Positions 1,954 to 32,800 of a stretch of DNA of 64,000 bases are shown here, piece after piece. Position 1 is the stretch's first letter; each line of letters starts with the position of its first letter. The stretch is from assembly GCF_036322805.1 (NCBI RefSeq), contig NZ_AP027272.1, positions 558,001 to 622,000 on the forward strand, given 5' to 3'. The notes under the pieces are model-generated. The model searched no databases. It was given only the letters and a program-made list of their open reading frames with translations, and was not told the DNA's origin. The translations under genes were made by a program, and so were the position numbers. This DNA comes from Planctobacterium marinum (GTDB lineage: Bacteria > Pseudomonadota > Gammaproteobacteria > Enterobacterales > Alteromonadaceae).

Positions 1954-3885
1954 GTGGAAAATGTTGAAAAAGCAGCGAAGTTAAGCTTGTCGAGAATAGA
2001 TTATAGTGCTGAGTTAAAAGGACTCTCTGACCAGGAGAAAAAGGTCTTTGTGCAGCGTCTTGAGCAAAACTTTGCAGGGTTATTTACCCTGTATCATCAA
2101 ATCTATGGTGCGCAATACGACTTTTTCTATCACTTGCAGCAACTTGTTTTGGTATTAGCCAGCGGTTATAAATCTCGTTCTGCGGCCCTTAAAAAGCTGG
2201 ATCTAGAGCGCCAGAAAAATCCCCATTGGTACCTGAGTGAGGACATGTTGGGTATGGCCTGCTATGTGGATTTATTTGCTGGCGATCTGAAAAAATTGCG
2301 CCAGCGCATTCCTTATCTGAAACAATTGGGCATCACCTATCTGCACTTGATGCCCTTGTATTCATCACCAGAAGGAGATAGTGATGGCGGCTATGCCGTG
2401 TCTGATTATCGCAAGGTGGATCCTAAACTAGGCAGCACCAAAGACTTAAAAGCGCTTGCGCAAGAACTCGATAAAGCGGGTATCAGTCTGGTGTTAGATT
2501 TTGTCTTTAATCACACATCTGATGAGCATGAGTGGGCGAAATTGGCAAAATCAGGTGACGAAAAGTACCAGCAGTTTTATTACATGTTCAATGAGCGACA
2601 TAAAGTGGATGCTTATGAGCAACATTTGCGAGAGATTTTTCCACAGGTGAGGCGCGGTAATTTTAGCTGCAATGAAGAAACCCAGACATGGGTATGGACT
2701 ACCTTCAACAGTTTTCAATGGGATCTCAATTACAGTAATCCTGAGGTATTCAATGCCATAACTGATGAGATGCTGTATCTCGCCAACTTGGGCTGTGGCG
2801 GTTTGCGGCTCGATGCCTTGGCTTTTATCTGGAAAGAATTAGGTACGAATTGTGAAAACCAGCCTAAGGCACATGCTTTAATTCAGGCCTTTAACGCTTG
2901 TTTGAAAATTTCAGCGCCGGCAGTGGTATTTAAATCAGAAGCCATTGTTCATCCCGATGAAGTGAATAAATACATTGCTCCAGAGGAGTGCCAACTATCC
3001 TACAACCCGTTGTTAATGGCGTTGCTGTGGAATAGCCTGGCAACCCGTAAAACCCGTTTGTTAACCGCCTCAATGCAGAAAAGTTTTAGTATTGACCCCC
3101 ACTGCGCATGGGTGAACTATGTGCGCTGTCATGATGACATTGGCTGGACATTCGATGATGCCGTGGCCGGACAGTTGGGCATTAATGGACATGACCATCG
3201 CTACTTTTTGAATCAATTTTATGTAGACCGATTCGAAGGTAGCTTTGCTAAAGGAGTGGCTTTTCAGGAAAACCCTTCCAATGGTGATTGCCGGGTTTGT
3301 GGCTCCTTAGCCAGCCTGGCGGGCCTTGAAAAGGCGCTGGAATCCGGTGATGAACACGCCATACAAACAGCAATTGATCGCATTTTGTTGTTACACAGTG
3401 TCATCTTGAGTATTGGCGGCATTCCGTTGCTGTTCTCCGGAGATGAATTGGGCCTGTTAAATGACTACAGCTATGAGCAGGATAACAGCAAAGCCCACGA
3501 CGCCCGTTGGGTAAACCGCATTGCGTTGACCGATCAAGACATAGAAGCAGCTCAAGACAGCAGTACAGTGAGCCATCGTATCTTGCAAGGTATTAGTCAA
3601 ATGGTGCAGATCCGCAAATCCCTGCCAGTGTTCGGTGTGGCCAGAACAGAAATACTGGAATCAGGTAACCAGCACGTGTTTGTTTATAAACGCATTAATG
3701 AGCACGGGGATGAGTTGTTAGCATTGGTTAACTTTAGTGAGTATGCGCAGAGCGTGAATAGCCAGTATCTGTATCAGGGAGAGGGCAAAACTTATCGCGA
3801 CTTGTTAGCGGATAACGCTGAGCAAAAAGTGAACTGCTGGCTAAACCTCGAACCTTATCAGGTAATGTGGCTCAAGCTAGAGTGA
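1954..3885 (+). CDS. Amylosucrase (GH13 subfamily 4)
   Basis: The enzyme uses sucrose to build alpha-1,4-glucan and releases fructose, or hydrolyses sucrose. The four GH13 motifs are intact: DFVFNHT (near residue 185), GLRLDALAFIW with the nucleophile Asp (near 289), FKSEAIVHP with the acid/base Glu (near 331), and VRCHDDIGW (near 395). The tail EPYQVMWLKLE and the NPSNGDCRVCG segment match amylosucrases closely. At about 643 residues it has the family length and no signal peptide, so it is cytoplasmic. A GTG at 1948 is also in frame, but GTG 1954 has AAGG at a proper 7-base spacing. Operator copy 2 overlaps this ribosome site. Amylosucrase, rather than sucrose hydrolase, is the best call from the motifs; activity cannot be told apart from sequence alone. 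Confidence 0.9.
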   Translation: MENVEKAAKLSLSRIDYSAELKGLSDQEKKVFVQRLEQNFAGLFTLYHQIYGAQYDFFYHLQQLVLVLASGYKSRSAALKKLDLERQKNPHWYLSEDMLGMACYVDLFAGDLKKLRQRIPYLKQLGITYLHLMPLYSSPEGDSDGGYAVSDYRKVDPKLGSTKDLKALAQELDKAGISLVLDFVFNHTSDEHEWAKLAKSGDEKYQQFYYMFNERHKVDAYEQHLREIFPQVRRGNFSCNEETQTWVWTTFNSFQWDLNYSNPEVFNAITDEMLYLANLGCGGLRLDALAFIWKELGTNCENQPKAHALIQAFNACLKISAPAVVFKSEAIVHPDEVNKYIAPEECQLSYNPLLMALLWNSLATRKTRLLTASMQKSFSIDPHCAWVNYVRCHDDIGWTFDDAVAGQLGINGHDHRYFLNQFYVDRFEGSFAKGVAFQENPSNGDCRVCGSLASLAGLEKALESGDEHAIQTAIDRILLLHSVILSIGGIPLLFSGDELGLLNDYSYEQDNSKAHDARWVNRIALTDQDIEAAQDSSTVSHRILQGISQMVQIRKSLPVFGVARTEILESGNQHVFVYKRINEHGDELLALVNFSEYAQSVNSQYLYQGEGKTYRDLLADNAEQKVNCWLNLEPYQVMWLKLE

Positions 3886-3971
3886 TAAAATTACCGGTTT
3901 GCTAAGTTGTGTAAAATTAATATATCTACTTTGTTTCTACGACCAAAAGTGACGAGCTTTGCTTCATAATC

Positions 3972-24660: not shown

Positions 24661-24776
24661 TTGGTACAACTACCGCAGGGCAACGTTTCAGTGCTGTAAC
24701 ACCCTGAAACATTATTGATTCTGTGGAGGGCAGTTAGCCGTTGACATTGTTTGGCGGCTGCAAGACTATGGAAAAC

Positions 24777-24830
24777 ATGACTACTATTGAATCGTTACCG
24801 ATAGCTCGAATTATCATCATCATTCCTTAG
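24777..24830 (+). CDS. Ile-rich leader peptide of an attenuator
   Basis: This 17-codon ORF encodes MTTIESLPIARIIIIIP and stops at TAG. Seven codons are Ile, five of them in tandem (24810-24824, ATT ATC ATC ATC ATT), and two are Thr. The ATG at 24777 has a GGA about 4 bases upstream; an in-frame ATG at 24768 could add three residues. Its position just before mutually exclusive hairpins and a terminator matches the leader peptides of the ilv and thr operons, where ribosome stalling at the control codons decides transcription. The peptide itself would have no other role. Confidence 0.75.
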   Translation: MTTIESLPIARIIIIIP

Positions 24831-24887
24831 GAATGGTGGGATTTGTGCTGTCTAACATATCAAACCCGCCTTGAAGGCGGGTTTTTT
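24817..24887 (+). promoter_or_regulatory. Ribosome-mediated transcription attenuator (Ile control codons)
   Basis: Three mutually exclusive helices can be drawn. The pause hairpin 1:2 pairs 24818-24826 with 24830-24838 (9 pairs, loop TTA) and overlaps the Ile codons. The antiterminator 2:3 pairs 24835-24845 with 24861-24870 (10 pairs, one bulged A). The terminator 3:4 pairs 24863-24870 with 24876-24883 and is followed by a T tract. A ribosome stalled at the Ile codons would cover strand 1, free strand 2 and block the terminator. A candidate promoter (TTGACA at 24741, GACTAT at 24764, spacing 17) would start very near the leader ATG. The downstream gene is a nucleotide kinase, which is unexpected. 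Confidence 0.75.
24863..24887 (+). terminator. Intrinsic terminator of the attenuator
   Basis: The stem AACCCGCC / GGCGGGTT has loop TTGAA and six T residues follow directly. This is strand 3:4 of the attenuator and lies 33 bases before the kinase start, so read-through is needed for kinase expression from any upstream promoter. Confidence 0.85.
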
Positions 24888-24920
24888 GTTTCCGCTTTTG
24901 GGCAACATGGAGGAAGCAAG

Positions 24921-25445
24921 ATGAAAAAAATCGCCATCATTGGTAAACCTGCAAGCGGTAAATCCACCCTCAGCAAAAAGTTAGCTGCGGCTACGGGGAT
25001 CAAGTTACACGCCTTGGATTCAATTTTGTATCAGGCCAATGGTGCGGAAATTGAACGCGCCGACTATGAGGCGATTCATCAAGATATCATTGCTGCGCGA
25101 GAGTGGATCATCGAGGGATTTGGGCCTATGAATTCCTTGCACTCCTTTAACAAACGATTAGAAGCTGCCGATACAGTAATTTATATTGATTTACCTTACA
25201 CAACGACTTATTGGCTGGTGACAAAACGCTTTTTGAAAGGATTGTTTAAAAAACCAGAAGGTTGGCCCGAAGGGAGCTCGATTTGGCATGGGACTTTACA
25301 AAGCTACAAGGTGTTAAAGCTTTGCCCCAAATTCTGGAATGCACAATTTTTGCAAAGGCTGGAAACGCTAACCAGCGACAAAACATTGCATGTCATCCGG
25401 TCCGTGGCACAGTTGGATAACTTTGTGGCAACTCACGTTAAATAA
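24921..25445 (+). CDS. P-loop nucleotide kinase (topology-modulation/FlaR-like)
   Basis: This 174-residue cytoplasmic kinase-like protein has a Walker A loop at the N-terminus (IGKPASGKSTLSKKLA, residues about 5-20). Adenylate-kinase-like elements follow (LHALDSILYQ, WIIEGFGPMNSL, VIYIDLPYTTTYWLVTKRFLK). The group is often labelled topology modulation protein; its substrate is not established. GGAGGAAG precedes the ATG at 24921. An in-frame start at 24843 would place coding sequence through the terminator and is rejected. It is the only gene behind the Ile-type attenuator and is followed by a convergent sugar-porter gene. Confidence 0.85.
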   Translation: MKKIAIIGKPASGKSTLSKKLAAATGIKLHALDSILYQANGAEIERADYEAIHQDIIAAREWIIEGFGPMNSLHSFNKRLEAADTVIYIDLPYTTTYWLVTKRFLKGLFKKPEGWPEGSSIWHGTLQSYKVLKLCPKFWNAQFLQRLETLTSDKTLHVIRSVAQLDNFVATHVK

Positions 25446-25487: not shown

Positions 25488-26948
25488 TTACATTTCTTCA
25501 AGGCGTCTACCGCGGGTTTCTTTAACGTAGCGATGCACAAAGAATAAGCTGATAAGGGCGCTGGAGGCATACAAGCCATAAGCACCACCCAAGCCGGTTT
25601 GGGTGAGCAGGATGGGGAAGGTCATGGTCACCAGGAAATTAGCCAGCCACTGCGCACTGGCGGCTAATGCCAGTGCCGCGCCGCGAATACGGTTATTAAA
25701 CATTTCCCCCAGTAACACCCAGACCACCGGGCCCCAGCTCATGCCAAAAAATACGATGTAGAGATTTGCCGCCACCAGAGCGAAGGTGCCATTGGCGTCG
25801 GTCAAGGCAAGTTTTCCGGCTTCGTCCAGGCCTGCAGTACTGAACAGGTAGGTAAGAATGGAAAGCATAATGGCCATACCAGTACTACCGATAAGCAACA
25901 GGGGTTTACGGCCGATTTTATCTATCAGCGCAATGGCGATAAAGGTAGAGGCAACATTGGTGACTCCCCCTAAGACATTGATAAACAGTGATTGTGATTC
26001 GTCAAATCCGGCTGCTTGCCATAGCTCCGCACCGTAATAAAACACCACATTAATCCCCACAAATTGCTGGAATACTGACAGGGCGACCCCTACCCAGATA
26101 ATGGGATGAATTTTGCGGCTTCCTTCAATAAACAGGTCCCGCAATGCAGGTTTGTGATCGCTCTTTAGTGAGCGTTTGATTTCATCGATTTGGGCGGTCG
26201 CAACGCCGGGTGCGATGCGTTCGAATACGCCTTTGGCTTTGTTGTCTTCACCTTGCGCCACCAAAAAGCGCGGTGATTCCGGGATCAATAACACACCGAT
26301 AAAAAACAGCGTAGCGGGAATGATCTCCATCCAGAACATCCAGCGCCAGGAATCAATCCCCAACCAACCTGCCTCACTGGCCCCGCCAGTATAAGAGGCA
26401 ATAGTAAAATTACTTAAAAATGCGGCGAATAGCCCCAAAACAATCGCCATCTGTTGCAAAGTGGCTAAGCGACCGCGCAAACTTGCTGGAGCCACTTCAG
26501 AAATATAGGCAGGCGCTAGTACAGAGGCTGCTCCCACGCCCAAGCCGCCCAATAAGCGGTAAAAGATAAATTCCGGAGAACTCTCGGCAATGCCCGAGCC
26601 GAATGCACTGACCGCAAAAATGATCGCGGTAATTATCATTACGGGTTTACGACCGACTTTATCGGCGATGGGACCCGCCAAAAGTGCACCCAGTGCACAG
26701 CCGAGTAAAACCGAGGCTACATTGAATCCGGTGGCCACATCGTTGGCGTTGAACGCTTTTTCCAGAGCACCAACCGTACCGTTGATAACACCTGAGTCAA
26801 AGCCAAATAAGAAGCCACCAATGGCGGCGACCGCAGAAATAAAGATTACGTAAGCAACGGAAACAGCTTGCTCCTCTGCAGCTGCGATTTGTGCAGCCGG
26901 GGCGACACTGTCCTGTGTCGAATTGTTTTTATTATTGTGTTCTGCCAT
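25488..26948 (-). CDS. MFS sugar porter (sugar:H+ symporter)
   Basis: This 486-residue, 12-helix inner-membrane transporter belongs to the sugar porter family. It shows GGFLFGFDSGVINGTVG in helix 1, the ADKVGRKP loop, PESPRFLVAQGE between the halves, QQFVGINVVFYYGAELW in helix 7, and a final ETRGRRLEEM. It resembles XylE/GalP-type proton symporters. An unusually strong inverted repeat sits 47-77 bases upstream of the start. FecR and FecI genes lie upstream on the same strand, separated by that repeat. The exact sugar cannot be read from sequence. Confidence 0.92.
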   Translation of the reverse strand: MAEHNNKNNSTQDSVAPAAQIAAAEEQAVSVAYVIFISAVAAIGGFLFGFDSGVINGTVGALEKAFNANDVATGFNVASVLLGCALGALLAGPIADKVGRKPVMIITAIIFAVSAFGSGIAESSPEFIFYRLLGGLGVGAASVLAPAYISEVAPASLRGRLATLQQMAIVLGLFAAFLSNFTIASYTGGASEAGWLGIDSWRWMFWMEIIPATLFFIGVLLIPESPRFLVAQGEDNKAKGVFERIAPGVATAQIDEIKRSLKSDHKPALRDLFIEGSRKIHPIIWVGVALSVFQQFVGINVVFYYGAELWQAAGFDESQSLFINVLGGVTNVASTFIAIALIDKIGRKPLLLIGSTGMAIMLSILTYLFSTAGLDEAGKLALTDANGTFALVAANLYIVFFGMSWGPVVWVLLGEMFNNRIRGAALALAASAQWLANFLVTMTFPILLTQTGLGGAYGLYASSALISLFFVHRYVKETRGRRLEEM

Positions 26949-27055: not shown

Positions 27056-28108
27056 TTAACTGCCCTGGCGCAACAGGATACGATTGTCAGCAGCGCGTTG
27101 ATGCTGGATATCAAAGTTTTGTTGCAAGGCGCTTAAAAAGCCCGATAAGTCATTGGTTTTAAACAGGCCCGCCACTTGAATTTGATTGAGCTGTGGGTTG
27201 GTCAGTTCGAATTTTACTGCATTGTAACGACTTACTTCGGCTAACACCTGTGCCAGTGGTTCACCGCGAAATACCAGATTGCCTTGTTGCCAGGATAGTG
27301 CCGCGTCTATTTCTGAGCTGGCTACCGATTCTATGACCAGCGCTTGCTCACTGAGCAGCGTTTTTTGTCCTTGCTCCAATGCAGGCAAGCTATCTTTTAA
27401 TCTTATCTGTTGGGGTTGCAGAGGGTTGTCATTGTTTTCAGTTTGTTTGCCGACCCGCACCTTGCCTTCTGTCACAATCAGCTCAACCTGGTCGGTGAGC
27501 AACTCCACATTAAAAGCGGTGCCCACGGCTTGAATAATTTGTCCTGCCGCATACACACTCAAGGGCTTCTGTTTATCATGTGCCACCTGCACATGCACCT
27601 CACCTCGATACAACTCAATTACCCGTTGTTGTGCTGTAAAGGTGACCTTTACCGAGGTGTTGGTATTGATGGCCAGTTGGCTGCCATCAGACAAGGTAAC
27701 TTTTTTGGAATCCCCGGTGCCAGTTTCAAAGCGCTGTTCTGACAGCACCACCAGCTCATCCTCTACCAGGAAACCCAAATCCGAGCTATTCCAGATAAAA
27801 GCCAGCAATCCCGCCAATAAGAAAAATGAAGCTGCGATGGCATGAGGGCCGCGACTTTGTTGTTTAACCGGAGGTTCGGGAAACAGCGACTTTAACCTTT
27901 CCAGTGCCGCCATGTTGTCCCACAGTTTCGCCATTTTGAATAACATTTCGCGGTGCTGTTCATCGGCCTGAAGCCAGTTTTTGAGGGCCTGCTCTTCATC
28001 GCTTTTTAAACCACGGTCCATTTTGGCAATCCAGTCAGCAGTGACATCCAACACTTCTGTTTCATTTGCCTTGCGAGCAGCTTCAATGGAAATCACATTG
28101 TCCTTCAT
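27056..28108 (-). CDS. FecR-family anti-sigma regulator
   Basis: This 350-residue inner-membrane protein relays a signal from an outer-membrane receptor to its ECF sigma factor. It has the cytoplasmic DUF4880-like sigma-binding domain (ADWIAKMDRGLKSDEEQALKNWL), a transmembrane helix near 90-110 (AASFFLLAGLLAFIW), and the FecR domain (TLSDGSQLAINTNTSVKV and QAVGTAFNVEL). A C-terminal STN-like segment ends it (PLAQVLAEVSRYNAVKFEL). Its ATG overlaps the sigma-factor stop as ATGA, so the pair is translationally coupled. The likely cognate receptor is the STN-bearing TonB-dependent receptor at 29848. Confidence 0.93.
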   Translation of the reverse strand: MKDNVISIEAARKANETEVLDVTADWIAKMDRGLKSDEEQALKNWLQADEQHREMLFKMAKLWDNMAALERLKSLFPEPPVKQQSRGPHAIAASFFLLAGLLAFIWNSSDLGFLVEDELVVLSEQRFETGTGDSKKVTLSDGSQLAINTNTSVKVTFTAQQRVIELYRGEVHVQVAHDKQKPLSVYAAGQIIQAVGTAFNVELLTDQVELIVTEGKVRVGKQTENNDNPLQPQQIRLKDSLPALEQGQKTLLSEQALVIESVASSEIDAALSWQQGNLVFRGEPLAQVLAEVSRYNAVKFELTNPQLNQIQVAGLFKTNDLSGFLSALQQNFDIQHQRAADNRILLRQGS

Positions 28109-28662
28109 CGGGATTTTCCTCCCTTGGTGAATTCGGTTTCCGTGGCTTCAGCATTTTGCTGTTTTTGCATAACGTAGAGCATACTGCGTTTCATTCCCTG
28201 AGCGATGTGTTTTTCGATAGTACTTTCACTAATATTCATCATTTTTGCTATTTCCTTTTGGGAATAGCCGTACACCTTTTTCAAGACAAACACTTTGCGG
28301 CAAGTGACAGGGAGTTGGCGAACTGCTTCGCAAAAATGACCAAATTCCTGATCGCTCACCACAGTTTGTAAGGTGTTATCGACCGTTTGTTCCAATAATA
28401 CGCTGTCTAAACTGTCTTCGGGGCAGTCAGTCAGACGCGTTTCCGCTCTTTTTAAATGATCCAGAGCGAGGTTTTTGGCGGTACGGTACAAAAAAGACTT
28501 GGGCTCAGAGATCGACTTAGGCTTTTCAACCTGACAAAGTCGAACATAGGTTTCTTGTACAATATCTTCCACCTCTTTAGGTGGCACCAGACGCGATACC
28601 ATGCGTGACAGGCCATTTCTGGCCGCCATATAAGCATCGTGAATTGTAGAGTCTAATGGCAT
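28105..28662 (-). CDS. FecI-like ECF sigma factor
   Basis: This 185-residue ECF sigma factor has sigma-2 (GLSRMVSRLVPPKEVEDIVQETYVR) and sigma-4 (KKVYGYSQKEIAKMMNISESTIEKHI) regions. It is of the iron-starvation/TonB-receptor-signalling type. I choose the ATG at 28662; the frame extends to 28707. It overlaps the FecR gene by four bases and is divergent from the periplasmic binding protein and STN receptor, which are its probable targets. No promoter consensus could be confirmed by eye. Confidence 0.92.
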   Translation of the reverse strand: MPLDSTIHDAYMAARNGLSRMVSRLVPPKEVEDIVQETYVRLCQVEKPKSISEPKSFLYRTAKNLALDHLKRAETRLTDCPEDSLDSVLLEQTVDNTLQTVVSDQEFGHFCEAVRQLPVTCRKVFVLKKVYGYSQKEIAKMMNISESTIEKHIAQGMKRSMLYVMQKQQNAEATETEFTKGGKSR

Positions 28663-28845
28663 TGTGTTCTGTTCTTGATTGCAATCACTGAGTAAAACGA
28701 AACACAAACTAAAATCCGCCAGTAGCCCCGCAAAAATTTTTTAAATTTTTTCTGGGGGATTTCCAAATCTGATTCGTCCCATCATTAATTTAACATATTT
28801 ATAACAAATCCGATGCTGAGCATCGAAGTAAATGGTCATTCTCAG

Positions 28846-29733
28846 ATGTTCAAAAATAACGCCTTTATTCTTTCTACTGTCTGCGTCCTGCTATTCTTAG
28901 TTGGTCTGCTGATTAATGTTCAAGCCAGCACCATTATTCACCCCAAATCCAATGACCCGAAAGAGAACCTGATCGCGGAAATTCTGAAACTGGCATTGAG
29001 TAAATCCGCCAATGGTGATTCCTACAGCTTTCAGCCCTTGCCCAACGCGCAAACCGAAGGACGCTCTATGGAAATGCTCAAGGAAGGCAGCATGTCGGTG
29101 ATGTGGGCAGGGACCCAAATACAGTATGAGCAAACCTTACTGCCGGTGCGTATTCCGGTGTTAAAAGGCATGTTGGGACATCGCATTTTTATCATTCGAC
29201 AAGGCGAAGAATCGCGTTTTTCCAACATAGATAGTTTGTCGGATCTGCAGCGTTTTCCCGTCGGACAGGGACGCTTTTGGGGAGATACTGTGGTACTGCA
29301 ACACGCGGGTTTAAATGTTGTCACACCGGTAAAGTACGCCAGCTTATTTCCCATGCTAGAAGGCGGGCGCTTTGATTTGTTTCCCAGGGCCATTCACGAG
29401 CCTTGGAGTGAAGTGGCCGCAAGACCAGAACTTAATCTGACCATCGAGCCTCGGGTATTATTAATTTATCCTTTTGCTATGTACTATTTTGTGGCCCCAG
29501 ATAATCGCGCACTGGCCAGCGATATTCAGCAGGGCTTTATGCGTGCTATTGAAGATGGCTCCTACGATCAGTTGTTTTATGCTCACCCCATGATAAAAGA
29601 TGCGTTAAGCTTTGCTCGGCTGGATGAGAGAGTGGTGATCCGCCTGGAAAACCCGAATATGAGTGCACAAACGCCACTAGACGACAAGCGTCTGTGGCTT
29701 AATATAGAAGACATGAAAGAGATAAATCTATGA
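28846..29733 (+). CDS. Periplasmic solute-binding-like protein in TonB-receptor cluster
   Basis: This 295-residue exported protein starts with a signal peptide (MFKNNAFILSTVCVLLFLVG, cleavage near VQAS). The mature part resembles a bilobed periplasmic binding protein (VMWAGTQIQYEQTLLPVRIPV, FPVGQGRFWGDTVVL, GGRFDLFPRAIHEPWSEV). No ABC transporter genes accompany it. It lies upstream of the STN receptor and is divergent from the fecI-like gene, so it may capture the imported ligand in the periplasm or help signalling. The start could be 28813; neither candidate has a clear ribosome site. Confidence 0.75.
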   Translation: MFKNNAFILSTVCVLLFLVGLLINVQASTIIHPKSNDPKENLIAEILKLALSKSANGDSYSFQPLPNAQTEGRSMEMLKEGSMSVMWAGTQIQYEQTLLPVRIPVLKGMLGHRIFIIRQGEESRFSNIDSLSDLQRFPVGQGRFWGDTVVLQHAGLNVVTPVKYASLFPMLEGGRFDLFPRAIHEPWSEVAARPELNLTIEPRVLLIYPFAMYYFVAPDNRALASDIQQGFMRAIEDGSYDQLFYAHPMIKDALSFARLDERVVIRLENPNMSAQTPLDDKRLWLNIEDMKEINL

Positions 29734-29840
29734 ACGACCTCGAGACTCAAGGCGCTGCTATTGCCGCCTTGTCAATAAATCCCGCGGCGGGCGTCGTTGC
29801 CTATAGCGGTGATTTGTTTGTTCAGGCTTTATCTTTTTGA
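29730..29840 (+). CDS. Small ORF coupled between binding protein and receptor (36 residues)
   Basis: The ATG overlaps the upstream stop as ATGA, and the ORF runs MNDLETQGAAIAALSINPAA on to a TGA at 29838, seven bases before the chosen receptor start. It may be a real peptide, or simply a device that carries ribosomes from the binding-protein gene to the receptor gene. It has no recognisable motif, so this is low-confidence coding. Confidence 0.3.
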   Translation: MNDLETQGAAIAALSINPAAGVVAYSGDLFVQALSF

Positions 29841-29847
29841 ATTGCCT

Positions 29848-32800
29848 ATGGTGCAGCGCGCTTATCAATCCATTCGAAGTGGTTTTCCTATGAAGCTGGT
29901 GGCTTCGGCATTGCTACTGATCACTGCGCCTGCCATTGCCACCGAGCAAGAGGAGCTGCGCCGCTTTCAGATTGAGAGTAAACCCGCTGATGAGGCGTTA
30001 ATCGAATTTGCCTCGCAAGGTAATCTCACGGTGGTATTTCCTTATTCGCTGGTTAAGGATATCCAGGCTAATGCCCTGCAGGGCTATTTGCCGGCCTCTG
30101 ACGCCATTACCCGTTTGTTAGCCGATACGCGTTTGCAGGCACAAATCAGTGAAGATAATCAGATCATCGTTAGCGAAAAGCCGCAAGTGCCGCCTGAGCC
30201 GCAATCGCTGTTTGAACGTTTTATCGACTTTGTGCGCGGCGATGACAATCTCATCAAAATAGAACCGGCCAAAGCGATCAGTCCTTATGAACACATTATG
30301 GTACGGGGTTATCGGGCCAGTATCCGCGAGTCTCAAAACATCAAGCGCGAATCAGATGTGGTGCTGGATAACATTCAGGCGGTGGAGATTGGAAAGCTGC
30401 CGGATCAAAATCTCGCTGAATCCCTGCAACGCATTGCCGGTGTCGCGATTGATAGAGCGGAAGGTGAGGGGCAATTTGTTACGGTTCGTGGGTTTGGCCC
30501 GGAATTTAATCGGGTATTGCTCAATGGCCGTCAGATGGCAACGGATAACCTCGGGCGCGAGTTCAGTTTTGATACTCTCGCATCGGAAATTGTCAGTGGC
30601 GTCAACGTGTACAAAACCCAAAATGCGCAGCAGCAATCTGGCAGTATCGGGGCAACCATTGATGTGCAAACGGCAAGGCCGCTTTCTATTCCCCATTTTC
30701 AGTTTGTGGGCAGTGTTAAGGGCTTATATGACCGCAATAGTCGTGATTTTTCACCGCAATATTCCGCGCTCATATCTAACACCTGGCACAACAATCGATT
30801 TGGCGCGCTATTGGCGTTTAACGAACAGCAGCGGGATGCCCGTATTGATGAAGCGCAAATCGATGGTTGGCTGGTAAACACCAATATTCCTGCAGAGCAA
30901 ATAAGTAATCCGTCAGATAACATTTTTGTACCGCGTAATTACGATCAGCGCGTGCGTTTTGATGAACGCAGGCGCACCGGCACCACCTTGGTTTTACAGT
31001 ATCGACCAGACGACACCCTGGAGTTGGTGGCTGATGCGCTACATACCCGTTTAGATGTCAGCACCAACGCTACTTCGATGGGGCACTGGTTTACCTCCAG
31101 TAACCTGGAACAGGTGAGTATGGATGAGCAGGGCACCGCAGTCTCATTTGTACAAAACATCGGCCATGCCACAGATTTTCATGCCCGGACCTTTGACAGA
31201 CCTGCCAAAATCGATGCCGTGGGGCTCAATGTGGACTGGCAACCCGAGAGTGCTTTTGCCTGGGAGTTGGATTGGTCGCTCTCACGTGCTGAGATCGCTG
31301 ATACGGAGGGGGCAGCCAATGCGCTCTCGCTGATTGGCTATTTGAATCGTTCCCGGTTTGCCCTGCAAGAGGGCTACCTGTTACCGCGCATTGACGGCTT
31401 TGAATCGGCTGAACCTAACGTGGTGGATGCCAATGGTTTTCCTTCTGGGGTGAGTCATTATCTCGACCCGAGCAATGGAAGAGCCCATGTGATGCTGCGG
31501 CGTGGTTGGCATATTCAGGATGAGGTGCAGCAATTTCGCATTGATGGCAATTGGGATGATGCCTTCGCTCAACCCTTTTATCTGGACTTTGGTTACCAGT
31601 TTACCGAGCAAATGAAAACGAATACCCGCTATGACAACGAGGCCAATGCTCGCCATTGCCAGTATTGTGGTTACTTCGATACGCCTGACATTCCTGATGA
31701 TTTTCAGAGCGTCTTCAGTGCCGGGGAAGATTTTCTCAGTGGTGTTTCTGGTCATCATTGGATACCCAAGCAGTGGTTGCGCCACGATAGTGAGCCGTTA
31801 TTTAGCTTTCTTGAAAGCTATGGTAATAGCGACTTGGGTGTGGCAAAACGCGGTAGTTCTTTCGCGGTAACAGAACAAATAAATGCGGCTTATGTGGATT
31901 TTGTGTTGAATCAACCTTTGCTGAACAAGCCGTTTACCTTGCATGCCGGGCTGCGCTTTGAGCATACTAAGGTGCATATCGCCGGTTTCATTGAGCAGTT
32001 ACAGCGCCTCGATATTCTGGATCAAACAGAGCTGGGGCCCGTCACCGGATCGCTGCAACCAGTAACTTTTGAAAATCGTTATCGCAATTGGTTGCCTTCT
32101 CTCAACGCCAAATGGGAACTGAGCGATGAGCTCACCAGTCGTTTCGCCTGGTCGCGCTCACTAACCCGGCCCACCATCTCACAATTGTCACCGGGAGTTA
32201 CTCTTAATACCACGCGCCAGGGGGGCGATTTGCGAGCCAGCTCTGGCAATACTCAGTTGCACCCCTTCGAATCTGAAAATCTGGATATTGCACTGGAATA
32301 CTACTACCAGCAAAGCAGCTATTTGTCTTTGGGCTTTTTTGTTAAGCGGGTTAGTAACTTTATTACTACTCAATCCAACACGGTGGTGTTTGGTGATGTA
32401 ACCGATCCCAGTACTGGCGATGATCCGGCGGCTCCAGATAATAACGATAGTCTGGCGGAATTCGATTTGGTGCAACCGCAAAATGGCGAGCAGGCCAAAG
32501 TGTAGGGCATTGAACTGAGCATCAGTCATCAGTTTGGCGAAAGTGGCTTTAGTATCTTGGGCAATACCACCATGGTGGACAGTAATGCCGAGCTGGATCG
32601 CAATGACGTCAGCAATAAATTTGCCCTGACGGGTTTAAGCGATGCTTCGAACCTGGTGTTGTTTTACGAAAAGGGCCGTTGGCAATGGCGCCTGGCCTGG
32701 AATCGGCGGGAGAGCTTTTTGCAATCGCTGGTACAGCGTCAAAGCTCAGAGCCCACCTTTGTGGCACCTTATCAGCAAGTGGATATGAGCATGAGCTTTG

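Follow-up and report, generated by a model that had tools for sequence, protein, structure and literature searches.

In proteobacteria, the ilvGMEDA, thr, trp, his and leu operons are preceded by amino acid attenuators, in which a leader peptide rich in the sensed residue is followed by a pause hairpin, an antiterminator and a terminator that exclude one another. In the Sinorhizobium meliloti trpL attenuator, which contains Trp codons and lies upstream of trpE(G) in an alphaproteobacterium, the leader RNA begins at the AUG of the leader ORF (PMC7298713). In bacilli, a histidine leader peptide controls hisS/hisZ paralogues, providing a precedent for leader control of duplicated aminoacyl-tRNA synthetase-type genes, although isoleucine and ilvA do not occur in the main text of that report (PMC2965389). 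Rfam lists the family RF00624, "Pseudomonas sRNA P9", as an sRNA gene. Finally, resistance-type isoleucyl-tRNA synthetases are represented by IleRS2, MupA and TmlM, and tmlM confers high-level thiomarinol resistance in E. coli (PMC3069032).

The element analysed here lies in a 64-kb window of the Planctobacterium marinum genome (64,000 nucleotides; contig NZ_AP027272.1, positions 558,001 to 622,000), to which all coordinates refer unless stated otherwise. A preliminary description had proposed an Ile-type ribosome attenuator placed before a nucleotide kinase, and had offered two alternatives, either control of the kinase by tRNA-Ile charging or a leader left behind by a lost ilv operon. The architecture was confirmed. 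The leader ORF at 24777-24830 (+; ATG to TAG) encodes MTTIESLPIARIIIIIP, with five tandem Ile codons (ATT ATC ATC ATC ATT) at 24810-24824; an in-frame ATG at 24768 also exists but overlaps the predicted -10 element. The pause hairpin (24817-24839, +) is formed by 24817-24826 with 24830-24839, and the antiterminator (24835-24870, +) has 10 pairs, formed by 24835-24840 (GGTGGG) with 24865-24870 (CCCGCC) and by 24842-24845 with 24861-24864 around a bulged A. The intrinsic terminator (24862-24887, +) pairs 24862-24870 with 24876-24884 and has a T tract at 24882-24887. Segment 24835-24839 is shared by hairpin and antiterminator, and 24862-24870 by antiterminator and terminator, so the full structures exclude one another. 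The kinase gene (24921-25445, +; 174 aa) follows with its own Shine-Dalgarno, GGAGGA, at 24909-24914 (+). In contrast to the operons controlled by the ilv, thr, trp, his and leu leaders, the genes found behind this and similar leaders are accessory ones (kinase, second ileS, SnoaL, GNAT), and the leader start codon sits at the predicted start of transcription.

To evaluate the RNA, folding against shuffled sequences and covariance searches were carried out. The 115-nt RNA folds at -42 kcal/mol against a shuffled mean of -23.4 (z -5.8), with 0 of 200 shuffles as good. A covariance model trained on 23 kinase leaders, this one included, gives 83.4 bits here, and the other two matches in the window are reverse-strand matches on the same element, at 22.9 and 15.6 bits. 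The only Rfam family to reach its gathering score in the whole window is RF00624 (P9), at 24807-24885 (+), with 44.9 bits against a gathering score of 43; no T-box match reached gathering. The P9 family consensus itself reads as Ile codons, hairpin and terminator. Other attenuators come close to this model but stay below gathering, namely the trp leader before trpE of the same genome (C1:3238723-3238827), with 37.1 bits, and a thr leader in another genome, with 41.8 bits, suggesting that the P9 model partly recognises attenuator architecture in general.

Conservation of the leader with the kinase was examined next. Among 295 genomes of the order, 25 have the kinase at E 1e-15 or better, and in 22 of these an Ile leader with hairpin and terminator lies just upstream; of the three exceptions, one has a TTG start and one is a fragment. 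Of 58 named loci from Vibrio, Marinomonas, Marinobacter, Alcanivorax, Oceanospirillum, Marinimicrobium, Pseudoalteromonas, Agarivorans, Planctobacterium and others, 51 have a match of 47.8 bits or more upstream of the kinase, in one case about 220 nt upstream, while one has a degenerate match (26.4 bits) and six, including a fragment, have none. The two sets overlap and the model was trained on 23 of these leaders, but an ORF-based reading that does not use the model shows in most relatives about ten variable residues, R, a run of Ile, P and stop. Gene neighbourhoods mostly differ, since among 44 loci only 37 of 801 pairs from different genera share any neighbour, against 67 of 145 pairs within a genus. 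Leader and kinase thus behave as one unit. All three Vibrio plasmid records with the kinase (55-57% identity) carry the leader, at 77.5 bits, beside a YHS-domain gene and in two of three followed by a CutA-like or hypothetical gene and an ACT-domain gene; the plasmid location suggests transfer. In viral contigs, the leader pattern gave no match and the kinase no relative.

Compensatory changes were assessed on 51 distinct leaders, bearing in mind that related rows are counted more than once in such tables. Hairpin and terminator pairs form in 97.9% of cells and 5 pairs have changes on both sides (0 of 500 shuffles as high for either; 4 of 500 for the number of pair types), against at most 55.4% paired when the partner is slid. 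For six antiterminator pairs, 97.4% of cells pair (0 of 500 shuffles; 35.0-69.5% when slid). The variable terminator position is A or G (30/21), both able to pair with U28, and two leaders change G31-C79 to U-A. However, six rows break that pair, and the count of antiterminator pairs with double changes (one) is reached by 64 of 500 shuffles, so the antiterminator is supported less strongly than the other two structures.

These data also bear on the view that the leader is a relic of an ilv operon that was lost or moved, which the ilv/thr-like architecture had made conceivable. This view is rejected for this locus and is very unlikely. Leader and kinase stay together in 51 of 58 loci with pair-preserving changes, and ilvA is intact elsewhere in the genome (C1:177612-179117), downstream of a cluster that looks like ilvD, ilvE and ilvG (named by eye, not by HMM) and has its own Val/Ile leader of different sequence, MQTVANSLIVVVVVIISSLRGRL. 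The kinase leader is therefore not what is left of this genome's ilv operon. In the seven kinase loci whose ORFs were listed, no ilv genes were recognised by eye. A true relic leader does exist in Marinomonas sp. TW1 (locus L165, positions 3863-3943), where a second copy of the kinase leader without a recognisable start codon or promoter lies on the far side of a monooxygenase-like gene.

To understand how ribosome position could select between the structures, a footprint model was used with the ribosome edge assumed at P site +15. With any of the five Ile codons in the A site, the antiterminator has a probability of 0.99 or more in the pre-terminator RNA, whereas at the Pro and stop codons its strand is covered. 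Stalls before the Ile run also leave the antiterminator likely, with 0.86-0.87 from codon 24792 and 0.996 at the Arg codon 24807, so the model does not by itself single out Ile codons and specificity rests on the codon run. At equilibrium the complete RNA always prefers the terminator (antiterminator stretch -13.6, terminator stretch -16.8 kcal/mol), so antitermination would have to be kinetic.

Several features point to Ile as the signal. In 52 matches, the first codon of the aligned four-codon run, which lies outside the stem, is ATT in 51, the exception being the relic copy in L165, and 35 of 52 read IIIIP. Part of the Ile run doubles as hairpin arm 1, so its conservation is partly RNA pairing. 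The strong conservation of the peptide end could alternatively suggest an arrest peptide, in which the nascent R-I-I-I-I-P peptide stalls ribosomes with a small molecule as in erm-type leaders. This is improbable, as similar leaders vary around the Ile codons (IISII or IIIII before the second ileS, IITII and IITLI before SnoaL-like genes, IITAI in P. aeruginosa P9), keep Ile codons rather than one peptide, and control an Ile-tRNA ligase and ilvA.

The promoter is locked to the leader start codon. In the window, a -35 element, TTGACA (24741-24746, +), and a -10 element, GACTAT (24764-24769, +), are separated by a 17-bp spacer, with a predicted start of transcription at 24776/24777. TTGAC begins exactly 35 nt before the leader ATG in 22 of 23 aligned leaders, and 36 nt before it in the window. 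In the larger set, with the ATG chosen from the ORF alone, TTGAC begins at exactly 35 nt in 42 of 52 kinase-leader matches and TTGA/TTGC in 45 of 52; the other seven comprise one at 34 nt, two from Marinomonas at 36, one with two possible ATGs (41 or 35), one with a GTG start, one further locus and the relic in L165. The distance is 35 in 4 of 4 second-ileS leaders (three TTGAC, one TTGC), while of six SnoaL leaders it is 36 in 3, 35 in 1 and absent in 2, and it is absent for the GNAT leader. Over 54 leaders with the element at 35 nt (start codon chosen with the element in view), position -11 is A in 54 and -7 is T in 52 when +1 is set at A of the AUG, which are likely the two strongest positions of a sigma-70 -10 element; in the window these fall one base further upstream. 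Nine of 54 have an SD-like 4-mer. Over 22,940 ATGs in the 58 named loci, TTGAC at distance 35 occurs 56 times, against 7 to 28 at every other distance from 25 to 60. The trp leader of the same genome and the ilv leaders of four genomes (start codons chosen by eye) lack this spacing. This fixed geometry suggests that the leader is probably read from a leaderless mRNA, as in S. meliloti trpL, giving an apparent leaderless attenuator in Gammaproteobacteria.

Similar leaders were searched for upstream of other genes. At 40 bits or more, the order search has 31 places in 295 genomes, of which 22 precede this kinase, 4 a second ileS, 3 SnoaL-like genes, 1 an AAA_33 kinase and 1 no recognised partner. 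In the last case (genome G019), the leader MNLNLTHKVSRIIIMP has a promoter spacing of 36 nt and an intact terminator of changed sequence, but is followed by a long ORF for a probable membrane protein. The class search has 6 places in 369 genomes, comprising 2 before this kinase, 3 before SnoaL-like genes and 1 before a GNAT gene, with one of each of the first two kinds also in the order set. Of the weaker matches of the order search, 20 were inspected; five are leaders before thrA-like genes, and the other 15 showed no such leader and were taken as chance terminators. Among six homologues in the order of one of the SnoaL-like proteins, 4 have the leader, and the two without are 35% identical. 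In one of the four (locus L225, positions 1400-1500) the terminator's 3' arm is missing compared with locus L226, a possible natural constitutive variant. In Azotobacter (plasmid record), a weaker P9 match of 39 bits, below gathering, precedes SnoaL and an AAA_33 kinase.

In P. aeruginosa (plasmid pZYPA1927, locus L230, positions 2835-2908), P9 itself scores 89.8 bits, reads as MTFATLLTRRSIITAIPAMAG with TTGACA 38 nt before the ATG, and is followed by a SnoaL-like gene and ilvA. P9 is thus probably a terminated attenuator RNA and not primarily a stand-alone sRNA. Since the window reaches the P9 gathering score, the terminated leader RNA could also be thought to act mainly in trans. This is unlikely, because conservation is tied to the gene downstream, to an apparently translated ORF and to antiterminator pairing, although a trans role is not excluded as an addition. 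In a literature search confined to open-licence papers, with PMC10485003, PMC2659441 and PMC13188873 searched by terms only, no paper was found under the P9 names or with a title on an IleRS leader in this group, and nothing relevant was found on attenuation of PA1325/PA1326/ilvA2 (PMC5542712 concerns SrbA, another locus).

Taken with its relatives, the element is best explained, with good confidence on comparative grounds and without expression data, as a ribosome-mediated transcription attenuator that reads tRNA-Ile charging and controls the kinase, the first of the two alternatives in the preliminary description. In this inferred mechanism, transcription starts at or within a base or so of the leader AUG. 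When charged tRNA-Ile is plentiful, the ribosome runs through the Ile codons to the stop codon and covers segment 2 (GGUGGG), and the terminator stops transcription, leaving a short P9-like RNA. When it is scarce, the ribosome stalls on any of the Ile codons and masks arm 1, segment 2 is free to pair with the 5' arm of the terminator, and the kinase is transcribed. The kinase would be one member of a small accessory set behind similar leaders (second IleRS, SnoaL-like with or without ilvA, AAA_33 kinase, GNAT), and probably belongs to a response to Ile-tRNA shortage, although it has no demonstrated link to Ile.

The designation of the product as a nucleotide kinase is not shown, only the predicted fold. 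The protein matches the "DNA topology modulation protein" model weakly (NF005994, 87.6 bits, below its cut-off of 215). AlphaFold2 gives a confident P-loop kinase (mean pLDDT 89.7), and the best solved relatives are adenylate kinase 5, hCINAP and shikimate kinase, at E about 2e-7 to 6e-7 and 15-18% identity. The family consensus has Walker A GKPGSGKS and a conserved KPEGWP, and the substrate cannot be named. A metabolic role in Ile or Thr supply, for example on an amino-acid precursor with ordinary end-product control by the leader, is possible but tentative. It is favoured by ilvA in the P9 operon and by weak similarity to a P-loop homoserine kinase model (NF040667, E 4e-4, residues 3-47 only). 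Conversely, the kinase is accessory (25 of 295 genomes), no ilv or thr genes were recognised beside it in the seven loci listed, and the fold search gives only generic adenylate/shikimate kinase matches.

About equally likely, and compatible with but narrower than the attenuator explanation, is a response to natural IleRS inhibitors of the pseudomonic acid or thiomarinol type, in which the leader is the sensor, ileS2 replaces the target, and the kinase and GNAT modify the inhibitor or a related compound. The second ileS is found in 4 of 295 genomes at E 1e-200 or better, all 4 with the leader and each with a housekeeping ileS besides. Its best plasmid match is the ileS of pTML1 (presumably tmlM) from the thiomarinol producer Pseudoalteromonas sp. 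SANK 73390, 59.7% identical over 96% of the query, and it is about 36% identical to MupA. The producers, marine Pseudoalteromonas, appear to share the broad habitat of many carriers, and both kinase and second ileS are patchy. The GNAT acetyltransferase behind an Ile leader (locus L070, positions 1628-2209) has as its only NCBIfam match at E 1e-5 or better an IleRS model with an inserted GNAT domain (NF040702, E 1e-17). However, no inhibitor-modifying activity has been shown for any of these kinases, the pTML1 ileS has no such leader, ilvA behind P9 fits plain Ile supply equally well, and no genome of the 295 carries both the kinase and the second ileS at the thresholds used. More speculatively, the leaderless Ile-codon attenuator might be a portable sensor of IleRS inhibition in marine Gammaproteobacteria, switching on interchangeable defence genes, namely a resistant second IleRS and kinase, SnoaL-like and GNAT enzymes that inactivate or bypass IleRS-directed natural products, in which case the P-loop kinase would be a new kind of protection enzyme.

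Elsewhere in the window, ECF sigma-factor-like, FecR-like and TonB-dependent-receptor-like ORFs were recognised by eye in a row at 27056-32505, next to a sugar porter (25488-26948), and represent an ordinary cell-surface signalling set.
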